Assembly: GCF_003865135.1 (NCBI RefSeq)
Contig: NZ_BHZC01000001.1
Location: forward strand, 3,658,001 to 3,722,000
Direction of reading: 5' to 3'
DNA from: Streptomyces chrestomyceticus JCM 4735
GTDB taxonomy: Bacteria > Actinomycetota > Actinomycetes > Streptomycetales > Streptomycetaceae
Length of the DNA stretch: 64,000 nt
Shown here in pieces: positions 47,058 through 50,930 of this stretch. Under the pieces are notes generated by a model, which did not search any database, was not told the DNA's origin, and worked only from the letters and a program-made list of their open reading frames with translations. Each line of letters begins with the position of its first letter. Position 1 is the stretch's first letter. Position numbers and translations under genes: made by a program.

Positions 47058-47318
47058 TCAATTCCGCAGCCGCTGCCGTTGCCTCCCGGTGGGCGCGGTG
47101 AAGATGCTGACGGATTCCTCCGTGTGCCGGGTGAAGCGCTTGTGCCCGGTCTCCGCCCCGTGCGCGCGAATCCACGTGTTCGACTGCATGGGATTGTCCC
47201 AACAGGCGGAACGCTCACCACACGCTTCTTCGTCGACTTCGGTGACGCACTCGGCGAAGTGGGCGCGAATTCCGGTGAGCTGGATTTCGAGGCGGGTGGT
47301 TACAGGGGGCGTCGTCAT
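47058..47318 (-). CDS. Small Cys-containing hypothetical protein (DUF7848-like)
   Basis: 86 residues from ATG at 47318 with AAAGGGA upstream. It has FAECVTEVDEEACGERSACWDNP and WIRAHGAETGHKRF. This pattern of Cys plus a WxxxHxxxTGH segment resembles small Streptomyces proteins found beside XRE/DUF397 loci; assignment to DUF7848 is tentative. It is divergent from the XRE regulator across 239 bp. Confidence 0.6.
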   Translation of the reverse strand: MTTPPVTTRLEIQLTGIRAHFAECVTEVDEEACGERSACWDNPMQSNTWIRAHGAETGHKRFTRHTEESVSIFTAPTGRQRQRLRN

Positions 47319-47557
47319 GGCCGTCCCTTTCGATCGGGAAAGGCTGGGGACAGGATCACTGTCGCCACTGGTGCGCAGGAAGAGCACGCCGTCACTTCCG
47401 CGTGAGCGCATGAGTCGGGTGAGGTGCTCCCGGCTGGAGAGCTGGTCAGGTTCACTCTTTCGGGACAAGGTTCGCTCCTTTCCGAAGAGGTTCAGCGTGT
47501 CCTACAGTCGAGACTCCATCAACGTGTCATTTGTGGCAGGAAAGTTGGCGGTAGCCC

Positions 47558-48394
47558 TTGAACCGCAAGGAGTTGAACCCGGACAGCAGTCCGCAGGCGG
47601 CCTTCGGGGCACGTCTGCGCAGCTCGCGCGAGAGCCATGGGTGGAAGCAGGAAGATCTGGCCGAGCACATGGGGTACTCCAGTACGCACATCTCAGCCGT
47701 TGAAACCGGTCGGAAGATTCCAACCTTGCGCTTTTCGCGCAGCGCTGACCGCGCCTTCGGCACCGAAGGGATAGCCGACACGTTCGAGCGGCAATGGCGC
47801 GAGATCAAGCACGGCGCACTGCTGGAGGGGTTCCCGGAGTTCGTGGGGCACGAAGGCCGGGCAGCGGAGATCCGGCTGTACGAAGTCGGTGTCATGCCGG
47901 GACTTCTTCAAACGTCGGATTACGCATCCGCCCTAGCCGACAGCGCTGTTAGACGGGGCGCGATCACGGCAGAGCAGGCAAGCGAGCGAGTCTCACTCGT
48001 CGCCGAGCGTCAAGCCGTGTTGCGTCGGACGTCTCCGCCGTTGGTTCTGGCAGTGCTGGATGAGAGCTGCCTGCGCCGCACCGTTGGCGAGCCTGCGGTG
48101 ATGGAAGCCCAGTTTGCGCACCTGATCGACTTCGCCAAGCTCCCCAACACCATCCTTCACGTGGCCCCGTTCACCATGGGTGCGGATAGGCCGTTCGACT
48201 TGCCGATCACGGTGATCACGCTGATGGACCGTTCTCTGATGTCGTACGCGGAGTCAGCCCAGCGAGGGCACCTCGAACGAGAATGCACCTCGGTAGTGCC
48301 CCTACTGACGGCCTACCATCAGTTACAGGCCGCAGCCCTCTCTCAGTCGGCTTCCGTGGCCATGATCGAACAGCTAAGAAAGGGCACACCGTGA
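47558..48394 (+). CDS. XRE-family regulator with DUF5753 domain
   Basis: 278 residues. The start is uncertain: TTG at 47558 or 47573. The helix-turn-helix is at about 18-60 (LRSSRESHGWKQEDLAEHMGYSSTHISAVETG). The DUF5753 domain follows (YEVGVMPGLLQTSDYA...ERQAVL...VLDESCLRR...LPNTILHVAPF). This is the WhiJ/Scr1 type of Streptomyces regulator, which works with small DUF397 proteins. Its stop overlaps the first DUF397 start (GTGA), the classic paired arrangement. Base composition is lower in GC than the flanks. Confidence 0.9.
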   Translation: MNRKELNPDSSPQAAFGARLRSSRESHGWKQEDLAEHMGYSSTHISAVETGRKIPTLRFSRSADRAFGTEGIADTFERQWREIKHGALLEGFPEFVGHEGRAAEIRLYEVGVMPGLLQTSDYASALADSAVRRGAITAEQASERVSLVAERQAVLRRTSPPLVLAVLDESCLRRTVGEPAVMEAQFAHLIDFAKLPNTILHVAPFTMGADRPFDLPITVITLMDRSLMSYAESAQRGHLERECTSVVPLLTAYHQLQAAALSQSASVAMIEQLRKGTP

Positions 48395-48591
48395 CCACCG
48401 AACCCCTCCACTGGTTCAAGTCCTCCTACAGCAACAACGGCGGTCAGTGCATAGAGGTCGCCACCAACCTCGCCGTCTCGCACGGCGTGGTCCCCGTCCG
48501 CGACTCCAAGAACCCCAACGGCCCACACCTGACGCTCAGCACGGACGCATGGTCCGGCCTGGTCGAGTTCGCCCGGCACACGGCCGTCTGA
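48391..48591 (+). CDS. DUF397 protein, copy 1
   Basis: 66 residues: WFKSSYSNNGGQCIEVATN...GVVPVRDSKNPNGP...WSGLVEFAR, the full DUF397 domain. GTG start overlaps the XRE stop. In Scr1/Scr2-type and WhiJ-type loci the DUF397 partner modulates or antagonises the XRE protein; that role is inferred here. A terminator follows, so only this copy is surely in the XRE operon. Confidence 0.9.
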   Translation: MTTEPLHWFKSSYSNNGGQCIEVATNLAVSHGVVPVRDSKNPNGPHLTLSTDAWSGLVEFARHTAV

Positions 48592-48610
48592 CCTCAGCAG
48601 AGCGGCCACG

Positions 48611-48644
48611 GCCCCGCTACTCCCCCACGGAGCAGCGGGGCTTT
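48611..48644 (+). terminator. Intrinsic terminator after DUF397 copy 1
   Basis: GCCCCGCT and AGCGGGGC form an 8-bp stem followed by TTT. It separates the XRE/DUF397 pair from the rest of the array. Confidence 0.7.
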
Positions 48645-48728
48645 CGCATGGTCACATGTTTCGCCAATCAGGTTGCGGGATAGACCCGTTGACGTGCTAG
48701 CCCCCAAGCGGCTACGAGAGGGCACCCC

Positions 48729-49106
48729 ATGACCGCCGAGACCCCCCACTGGTTCACGTCCTCGTACAGCGAGAACGGCGGCGCCTGCGTAGAGGCCGCC
48801 ACCAACCTCGTCACCTCACGAGGCGTGGTCCCCGTCCGCGACTCCAAGAACCCCAACGGCCCGGTCCTGACCCTGACCCCCGGCGCCTGGACCGGACTCA
48901 TCCAGTTCGCCCAGCAGGCCCCCCGCTGGCTCAAGTCCTCGTACAGCGACAACGGCGGCCAGTGCGTAGAAGCCGCCATCAACCTCATTGCTTCGCGCGG
49001 CGTGGTGTCGGTCCGGGACTCCAAGGACCCCGACGGGCCGGTCCTGTCCCTCGCCCCGGACGCATGGGCCGGGCTGATCTCGTTCGCCCGGCAGGCAGGC
49101 ATCTGA
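48729..49106 (+). CDS. Double-domain DUF397 protein (copies 2 and 3 fused)
   Basis: 125 residues. Two complete DUF397 domains stand head to tail: WFTSSYSENGGACVEAATN...WTGLIQFAQQA, then directly PRWLKSSYSDNGGQCVEAAIN...WAGLISFARQAGI. DUF397 proteins are usually single-domain and about 60-70 residues. Fusion fits loss of the stop/start between two tandem copies. A weak AGAGGG lies upstream of the ATG. Confidence 0.88.
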   Translation: MTAETPHWFTSSYSENGGACVEAATNLVTSRGVVPVRDSKNPNGPVLTLTPGAWTGLIQFAQQAPRWLKSSYSDNGGQCVEAAINLIASRGVVSVRDSKDPDGPVLSLAPDAWAGLISFARQAGI

Positions 49107-49119
49107 GGGAGGCCACCTC

Positions 49120-49319
49120 GTGACCACCGAAACCCCACGCTGGTTCAAGTCCTCCTACAGCGAGAACGGCGGCGTCTGCATCGAAGTCGCAACCAACCTC
49201 ATCACCACACTCGGAGTGATCCCGTCCGCGACTCCAAGGATCCGGACGGACCGGTCCTGACCCTGACCCCCGACGCCTGGTCCGAACTGGTCCGGTACGC
49301 ACGGCACGCCTCTCTCTGA
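49120..49319 (+). pseudogene. DUF397 copy 4, frameshifted
   Basis: GTG at 49120 opens a normal start (TTETPRWFKSSYSENGGVCIEVATN...GVIP), but then the frame leaves the family. Adding one C to CCC at 49221-49223 restores VRDSKDPDGPVLTLTPDAWSELVRYARHASL and the stop at 49317. So this copy has a single-base deletion, or the assembly is one base short here. Confidence 0.85.
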
Positions 49320-49332
49320 GAAAGGGCCTTCC

Positions 49333-49533
49333 GTGACAACCGAATCGCCCCGCTGGTTCAAGTCCTCCTACAGCAACAACGGTGGCGCCTGCGTAGAGGC
49401 CGCCACCAACCTCCTCACCACACACGGCACGGTCCCCGTCCGCGACTCCAAGGTTCCGGACGGCCCCGTCCTGACCCTCACGCCGGACGCATGGGCCGGA
49501 CTGATCGAGTTCGCCCGGCAAGCCGGCATCTGA
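49333..49533 (+). CDS. DUF397 protein, copy 5
   Basis: 66 residues, intact: WFKSSYSNNGGACVEAATN...GTVPVRDSKVPDGPVLTLTPDAWAGLIEFARQAGI. GAAAGGG lies just upstream of the GTG. It starts 14 bp after the frameshifted copy ends. Confidence 0.88.
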   Translation: MTTESPRWFKSSYSNNGGACVEAATNLLTTHGTVPVRDSKVPDGPVLTLTPDAWAGLIEFARQAGI

Positions 49534-49544
49534 GAGAGGCCCCC

Positions 49545-49745
49545 GTGACCACCGAACCACCCCGCTGGTTCAAGTCCTCCTACAGTGACAACGGTGGCGC
49601 CTGCCTGGAAGCCGCCACCAACCTCATCGCCTCGCACGGCGTAGTGCCCGTCCGCGACTCCAAGACCCCGGACGGACCGGTCCTCACACTCACCCCGGAC
49701 GCCTGGACCGAGCTGCTCCAGTACGCCCGCCTCACCCCCACCTGA
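49545..49745 (+). CDS. DUF397 protein, copy 6
   Basis: 66 residues, intact: WFKSSYSDNGGACLEAATN...GVVPVRDSKTPDGPVLTLTPDAWTELLQYARL. GAGAGAGG lies upstream of the GTG at 49545. Last member of the array; the serine protease gene converges 18 bp on. Confidence 0.88.
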   Translation: MTTEPPRWFKSSYSDNGGACLEAATNLIASHGVVPVRDSKTPDGPVLTLTPDAWTELLQYARLTPT

Positions 49746-49763
49746 CCCCGGCGGCGAAGCCGC

Positions 49764-50930
49764 CTACGCGAACTTCTGGCTGATCCCCATGAACACCCGC
49801 TTCGCCTCCACGCCCAGATGCGGGCCGGCCAGCCACGTGTGGTTCAGGGAGCCGATGGAGCTGTTGGAGACCAGGTACGTGCGGCCGCCGTAGTTCGTGA
49901 ACCAGCCGCCGCCGGACGTGCCGCCGGTCATCGTGCAGCCGATGCGGTACATCGTGGGGGTGCCCTGGGCCATCGTGAGGCGGCCGGGGCGGGCGGGGCA
50001 GTTCATCATGCGGGCGCCGTCGTACGGGGGCGCCGCCGGGTAGCCGAATGCCTGGAGGCCGCTGACGCGGTCCGGCGAGGGTGCGCCGAACCAGACCGGC
50101 AGCGCGGCGCCGACGGTTTCCTGGAGCGACTTGCCGCCACCCCCTTCCGGCTGGACGTGCAGGACGGCGAAGTCGTACGCGGAACCGGCATTGCCGGACT
50201 TGGTGCTGCCCATGTCGATCCACTCACCGGACGTGGTGGCCCAGTTCGCCCACCACACCCCGTACGGCGCGACCTCCTGCGCCGGGGCCCGGCCGACCTG
50301 GCTCATGGGCAGGCCCTCGTCGTTGTAGGACGGCACGAAGACGATGTTGCGCATCCAGCCGCCGCTCCGGCCGGTGTGCACGCAGTGGCCCGCGGTCCAC
50401 ACCAGGTTCGACTCGCCGGGGTGCGCCGGGTCCTCCACGACGGTGCCGGAGCAGACCATCGGGCCCTGCGGGCTGTCAAACATGATCTTGCCTATGGGGG
50501 CCATGTGCTGGTGGTACGGCCGGGCCACCTGCCGGGCCTGGACCGGGCGCGGTTCCGGGTCGCTGCCGCCGGCGTCGCCCGCGTTCTGGGTGGTGACGTC
50601 CGGTGTGTCCCTGGCCTCGGCCATCCGGGACGGGTTCCACAGGTCCTTGATGACGGGGTTGACGAACTCGGACGCCTCGCGGGCCCACTGGTCCCAGTCC
50701 TTCCACCCGCCCTTCTGCCACTTCTTGACGTCGTCGAGGCTGGTGGGCAGCCCGCTCGGCAGGCCGGAACCGCCCGCGTCCGCCCCCGCCTCGCCGCCGC
50801 CCCGGTGGTCCGCGGCCGCCGAACTGCCGGGCGCGGCGACCTTGTCGTCCTGCGGGCCGCAGGCGGTCGCGGTGGCGAACAGTGCGACCGCCGCGGCGGC
50901 GGCCGCTGCGGTACGGCGTATGACAGGCAT
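49764..50930 (-). CDS. Trypsin/V8-like serine protease, predicted lipoprotein
   Basis: 388 residues. The signal sequence ends TATACGP, a lipobox-like site, so the enzyme may be membrane-tethered. Chymotrypsin-fold triad: His182 (WTAGHCVH), Asp253 (AYDFAVLHV), Ser339 (GGTSGGGWF). The segment between signal and protease domain (about 30-150) is Gly/Ala then charged, and may be a pro-region. No inhibitor or chaperone gene is adjacent. A 168-bp gap to the response regulator gene follows its start. Confidence 0.88.
   Translation of the reverse strand: MPVIRRTAAAAAAAVALFATATACGPQDDKVAAPGSSAAADHRGGGEAGADAGGSGLPSGLPTSLDDVKKWQKGGWKDWDQWAREASEFVNPVIKDLWNPSRMAEARDTPDVTTQNAGDAGGSDPEPRPVQARQVARPYHQHMAPIGKIMFDSPQGPMVCSGTVVEDPAHPGESNLVWTAGHCVHTGRSGGWMRNIVFVPSYNDEGLPMSQVGRAPAQEVAPYGVWWANWATTSGEWIDMGSTKSGNAGSAYDFAVLHVQPEGGGGKSLQETVGAALPVWFGAPSPDRVSGLQAFGYPAAPPYDGARMMNCPARPGRLTMAQGTPTMYRIGCTMTGGTSGGGWFTNYGGRTYLVSNSSIGSLNHTWLAGPHLGVEAKRVFMGISQKFA

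Follow-up and report, generated by a model that had tools for sequence, protein, structure and literature searches.

A six-domain DUF397 array behind one XRE-DUF5753 regulator of Streptomyces chrestomyceticus, probably a tandem amplification of the regulator's own partner

Streptomyces genomes encode numerous DUF397 partners, which influence differentiation and antibiotic production in those species that have been examined, but the reason why certain regulators own many of them is apparently unexplained in the open-licence literature. This question is raised by a locus of Streptomyces chrestomyceticus JCM 4735, in which six domains of the DUF397 (BldB/Scr2-like) type lie behind one XRE-DUF5753 regulator gene (47558-48394) on the same strand.

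Layout of the locus and length of the array

The locus is part of a window of 64,000 nucleotides, which is the whole stretch of DNA analyzed here and which lies at 3.658-3.722 Mb of the 9.38-Mb single contig of the host genome. The following features were assigned around the array (window positions):

47059..47318, minus strand: divergent ORF of 86 aa, weakly DUF7848-like (PF25232, 23.3 bits, cut-off 24.5)
47492..47525, plus strand: two TCARCGTG-like direct repeats in the regulator promoter region, starting at 47492 and 47519
47558..48394, plus strand: XRE (HTH_31)-DUF5753 regulator of 278 aa with a TTG start (PF13560, 54.7 bits; PF19054, 141.2 bits; each above cut-off)
48391..48591, plus strand: DUF397 copy c1, 66 aa (PF04149, 74.2 bits), overlapping the regulator stop codon (GTGA)
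48610..48642, plus strand: strong, terminator-like hairpin 3' of c1, assigned by its fold and its conservation in the S. monomycini linkers
48689..48718, plus strand: putative promoter TTGACG-18-TACGAG 5' of c2, with hexamers and 18-nt spacing as in S. monomycini
48729..49106, plus strand: c2-c3, in-frame fusion of two DUF397 domains, 125 aa (two PF04149 stretches, 134.3 bits)
49120..49319, plus strand: c4, frameshift-split DUF397 copy with its ORF end at 49260 (part matches in two frames)
49333..49533, plus strand: DUF397 copy c5, 66 aa (PF04149, 74.1 bits)
49545..49745, plus strand: DUF397 copy c6, 66 aa (PF04149, 71.3 bits)
49750..49764, no strand: short hairpin where c6 and a trypsin-like gene converge with their ends

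A sequence-only reading of this DNA had described one regulator with at least six DUF397 domains, a fusion and a frameshifted copy included, and the layout was found to be as stated. With six domains, the locus belongs to the XRE-(n)DUF397 tandems, which have at least two same-strand DUF397 genes after one XRE gene. The five intact domains scored 67.7-73.3 bits against PF04149 in a whole-genome search (cut-off 24) and carry the CxE and RDS motifs, and the frameshifted c4 was matched in two parts (26.3 and 38.3 bits). A direct-repeat search recovered the same six-copy series (families D2 and D3) with start spacings of 338, 177, and then 212-214 nt, the latter being regular across c3-c6. The 338-nt step covers the c1-c2 linker including the hairpin, and the 177-nt step corresponds to the in-frame c2-c3 fusion, whose junction in the alignment is 35-37 nt shorter across stop and start than those of c5-c6 and c3-c4. 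Relatives of the 125-aa fusion protein are P0001 from S. chrestomyceticus (89%) and P0002 (77%). The c4 frameshift is not confined to this record, as its 46-aa product occurs on three contigs, this genome's included, although these possibly stem from repeated sequencing of a single strain; intact 66-aa relatives of c4 are found in S. chrestomyceticus and S. albofaciens (P0124-P0126). Since c4 is broken, at least one copy is dispensable. The fold of 49743-49790 with the hairpin behind c6 (-12.8 kcal/mol, z -0.41) is no better than that of shuffled sequences. As a side observation, an N-terminal KSSYS-GG-CxE segment is repeated before a full DUF397 domain at 5360565-5360783 of the same genome and in P0006.

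The claim that loci of this type typically have one or two DUF397 genes agrees with a count among 45 close relatives, which were found with the regulator protein and of which 34 have one partner, nine have two, and two have three. The HMM used for this count was started from the copies of the array itself and then iterated, and copies less than 700 nt apart were chained, whereby three loci own one more copy outside this distance, five stop less than 1.5 kb before a contig edge, and one of the loci with two partners has a partial second copy. The host genome encodes 29 DUF5753 regulators, and the window array is the longest among their loci: 19 have one neighbouring DUF397 gene, four have two, one has three (4194426), four have none nearby (5717523, 7869161, 3999946, and 6819053), and the one in the window has six domains. 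In two of the 19 single-partner loci the DUF397 gene is upstream (528195, and 4319860 at a distance of about 1.3 kb). Across 392 Streptomyces genomes, a tight-spacing scan for three DUF397-like motifs matched 11 genomes, eight of them with true DUF397 according to the HMM, and a wider-spacing scan matched five, two of them true; the matches of each scan to non-DUF397 sequence in three genomes were dropped after checking. Taken together, the two scans point to at least nine of the 392 genomes, the own genome included; the true number is higher or equal, as two four-copy arrays, those of G376 and G010, escaped the patterns. The largest other Streptomyces array that we found has five copies (G019), and therefore six is the longest array found and does not constitute a separate class.

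Relatives, recombination and divergence of the copies

The nearest named relative of the locus is that of S. monomycini (L060), whose regulator is 95% identical. No genome of the 392-genome sample matches the regulator as closely, and a second scan of the genus for closer species (323 genomes, 1e-225, overlapping the first sample) returned only the own genome. The numbers of copies differ among relatives: S. monomycini has three, in 338-nt steps, compared to six in the window. The S. monomycini array has two linkers of 137 nt, which are 100% identical to each other, and identity between its first two units is 93%. It lacks c3-c6, with about 3 kb of other DNA in their place, and therefore this species does without the long array. 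This replacing stretch (L060:6718-9676) has no blastn match to the window, contains an ORF with an HTH-like stretch recognized by eye, and includes a 10-base run of N about 2 kb past the last S. monomycini copy.

In a protein tree of 57 rows, the 13 array rows, which come from the window, S. monomycini, S. chrestomyceticus, and one further record, formed one group with a single change, and none of 500 label shuffles was as tight, although support for the group itself is weak (45/74; present in 49% of 200 bootstrap trees). The 57 rows do not include c4, short matches, or most of the matches in the own genome that had no assigned locus. Within the tree, c5 and c6 form a pair (98/91), and a larger group of 15 rows (94/68) adds one row from L070 as well as the second partner of a paralogous regulator locus of the own genome (6711738-6713115, 69% DNA identity), which is the sole non-array copy of this genome grouped with the array copies. 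As the array copies group together, there is no sign in the tree of recruitment from many other loci. Conversion-like tracts were detected in two of 36 pairs, namely c1-c2 and m1-m2 (permutation P 0.0005 each), and such long shared tracts are as would be expected for gene conversion.

The copies had been claimed to differ mainly around GGxC(V/I/L)E and SKxPxGP, and this claim did not hold. Among the five intact copies, 29 of 58 core positions vary, and of the 164 pairwise differences 21 fall into the GGxCxE segment and 19 into DSKxPxGP, the other four segments having 22, 35, 38, and 29. Targeted diversification at these two sites was thus rejected for the window array, since the segments show no excess divergence. 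The variability per position follows the family background (Spearman 0.73 against 43 partner domains taken from related loci), only two of the array-variable columns being conserved there (<0.6 bit). Conversely, 13 residue occurrences of the copies have no counterpart at their column among the 43 domains (e.g., an Ala in four of the five copies). The dN/dS values of the ten window copy pairs are 0.27-0.77 and that of c1 against its S. monomycini counterpart is 0.25 (NG86 script), whereby the values between copies are averages blurred by conversion.

The ratio of N-half to C-half divergence is 0.95 in the window array and 0.90 in the background, for which the 95% range is 0.45-1.50. Of 13 arrays tried, L066, L165, and L175 had no usable copies; the ratios of the remaining ten extend from 0.11 to 5.94, with L060, L170, L173, and L185 above the range, L172 below it, and the window inside. 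A rule suggested by S. monomycini and G019, namely that arrays vary in the N-half and homogenize the C-half, is not established by the ten ratios, which scatter both ways. This scatter would fit conversion tracts placed at random, ten arrays being too few to exclude an N-half bias. In the five-copy array of G019 (L185), the C-terminal halves are much alike, whereas the N-terminal halves differ, one of these halves being of a different, WAPS type. Overall, we read the pattern of the window array as probably reflecting relaxed constraint and recombination, not diversifying selection.

Regulator promoter, c1-c2 linker and a proposed mechanism

The regulator has a lower dN/dS than the copies, namely 0.16 against S. 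monomycini and 0.05 in its HTH part. In the NCBIfam SCO1979-type model it scores 125.7 bits, far below the cut-off of 350. A structure search returned only HTH-region matches for the XRE sequence and no solved structure by sequence for DUF397; likewise, PADLOC gave only HTH-region matches for XRE and none for three DUF397 queries. Natural single-chain fusions of XRE-DUF5753 with DUF397 exist as well (P0121, 322 aa, 45% identical to the window regulator in the alignment, and P0122, 344 aa).

The regulator upstream regions of the window and 41 further loci were compared (n=42, the partial loci L085, L097, L100, and L103 being left out). Many of them have TCARC-type direct repeats at about -67 and -40; TCAAC.T occurs in 34 of 42, compared to a mean of 0.8 in shuffled sequences, and the first repeat in 30, compared to a mean of 4.7. 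An inverted repeat, GTAGY-N6-RCTAC, was observed about 92 nt upstream of the XRE start in 34 of the 42 regions (relatives among L061-L104) compared to 0.1 in mononucleotide shuffles, a count that ignores the kinship of the loci. It is absent upstream of the regulators of the window and of S. monomycini, both of which retain the direct repeats. The whole own genome contains two such sites (5429406 and 6711650), each at an XRE/DUF397 locus, and 138 matches to the reversed control pattern, although words containing TAG may be rare there anyway. WhiJ9 of S. venezuelae binds direct repeats with the consensus CGXXCTCAAC (PMC10294661), and because of this reported binding we infer that the direct repeats rather than the inverted repeat are the likelier operator of the regulator. 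The divergent DUF7848-like gene was considered as a conserved target and rejected, since among the 45 loci, a few of which contain little upstream DNA, it is present only in L060 (tblastn, 1e-3).

A terminator had been proposed at 48611, and a hairpin at 48610-48642 indeed folds well (48589-48660: -32.5 kcal/mol, z -2.62) and is conserved in S. monomycini. Behind it, TTGACG-18-TACGAG has identical hexamers and spacing in S. monomycini with a changed spacer; we take this element to resemble streptomycete promoters. A simple consensus promoter/terminator scan listed neither the hairpin nor this element.

Overall, these data suggest, with a probability of roughly 0.6, that this is a WhiJ/Scr1-type locus whose own DUF397 partner was amplified in tandem, which would raise the partner dose without creating new specificities. 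Unequal recombination would have amplified the partner gene, and gene conversion would partly homogenize the copies. The XRE-DUF5753 protein would bind the direct repeats in its own promoter and thereby control itself and c1, which overlaps it by four bases, as in 25 of 27 relatives examined, and may be made in a coupled manner. The copies c2-c6, located behind the terminator-like hairpin, would form a second transcript that supplies extra DUF397 protein. By analogy to the BldB, WhiJ, and Scr literature, the DUF397 products, including the tethered two-domain form, may hetero-oligomerize and modulate mainly the local regulator, so that the effect of the array would be a higher and more graded partner dose.

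We favor this reading because the array rows group together, though with weak branch support, the S. monomycini linkers are identical, conversion-like tracts occur, and the spacing of c3-c6 is regular. In addition, the variation follows the family background, dN/dS is 0.27-0.77, the fusion is kept at 125 aa, the c1-c2 linker has a hairpin and a conserved TTGACG-18-TACGAG, and natural fusions exist. Published reports point the same way: S. clavuligerus has 33 DUF397 genes beside 24 XRE genes with five tandem-DUF397 units, in most pairs DUF397 expression exceeds that of XRE, and most DUF397 genes have alternative TSSs (PMC8269248); BldB of S. venezuelae hetero-oligomerizes with most of ten paralogs (PMC10294661). 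The 13 residue occurrences unseen in the background and the consensus scan, in which neither promoter nor terminator was listed, count against this reading, as do the broken c4 and the lack of c3-c6 in S. monomycini. This clade, in which the copy number ranges from three to six and both a fusion and a broken copy occur, presents a convenient natural series for testing partner dose versus identity.

Other explanations and comparison with known systems

It is conceivable, though unlikely, that the array is the product of mostly neutral birth and death, in which slippage or unequal crossing-over creates tandem duplicates that then degenerate, with no role beyond c1. This would be in line with the broken c4 and its identical product on three contigs, with the difference between three and six copies in near relatives and the lack of c3-c6 in S. 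monomycini, and with copy dN/dS values above the 0.16 of the XRE gene. However, of the five copies that come after c1, four are undamaged and conserve W, SSYS, NGG, C, E, and RDSK, the fusion is in frame at 125 aa in relatives, and dN/dS is still below 1, whereby retention of c2, c3, c5, and c6 is judged from few comparisons.

The sequence-only reading had suggested that the array may be a bank of partners or decoys, in which divergence of the copies would allow them to bind different regulators; under this reading, XRE-DUF5753 proteins encoded at other loci of the genome would be tuned. Its assignment to the WhiJ/Scr1-BldB/Scr2 kind, in which DUF397 acts on or with XRE and BldB hetero-oligomerizes (PMC10294661), stands, but a special diversification for different regulators is not supported, as the copies group together, their variable sites follow the family, dN/dS is below 1, and the N/C ratio is 0.95. 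We thus consider the bank quite improbable. The 29 DUF5753 regulators of the genome, the cross-interaction of BldB with most paralogs (PMC10294661), the variation at 29 of 58 positions with 13 residue occurrences absent from the background, and the 6.71-Mb paralog's second copy inside the 15-row group would suit it, and regulators without a neighbouring DUF397 gene do exist, but this pool is small (four of 29). Against it, the array copies are, with weak support, grouped and not scattered among the partners of other regulators, their variable sites are largely family-wide with no excess at GGxC or SKxPxGP, and neither half of the domain is favored in the window array.

As a more speculative variant with very little probability, the array might be a recombining reservoir, whose mixed oligomers, the tethered c2-c3 included, would link several WhiJ/Scr1-type regulators to each other; changes in the number of copies as well as conversion would then rewire the control of development and antibiotics between close strains. 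A type II toxin-antitoxin locus with multiple copies of a DUF397 toxin and an XRE antitoxin, as proposed from genome context (PMC2701414, PMC4239341, PMC7159879) and echoed in the NCBI name of the fusion P0121 ("Scr1 family TA system antitoxin-like" regulator), is hardly credible, as overexpression of Scr2 caused no toxicity (PMC6262351) and that of 14 DUF397 proteins from S. coelicolor had no clearly toxic effect (PMC10364602), and both partners are fused in one chain in P0121 and P0122.

The locus can be placed beside several described systems. It is like Scr1/Scr2 (SCO4441/4442) and WhiJ/SCO4542 of S. coelicolor in combining XRE-DUF5753 with an adjacent DUF397, but these have one partner gene and the window has six domains (PMC6262351, PMC10364602). 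With WhiJ9-BldB9-iosA of S. venezuelae it shares a WhiJ-like regulator, DUF397, and TCAAC direct repeats near the regulator start, whereas no iosA or abaA neighbour was identified at the window, where the divergent ORF is weakly DUF7848-like (PMC10294661). Tandem DUF397 coupled to an HTH gene is described generally in PMC7159879 and is a feature that the locus shares with the mobile TA-like neighbourhoods and VMAP-ternary systems treated there. In the S. clavuligerus XRE-(n)DUF397 units, one XRE gene is likewise followed by several DUF397 genes (PMC8269248); the window differs from them in its six domains, fusion, broken copy, and c1-c2 hairpin. Tandem DUF397 behind one regulator is thus already published (PMC8269248, PMC7159879), and the window array is an unusually long example of it.
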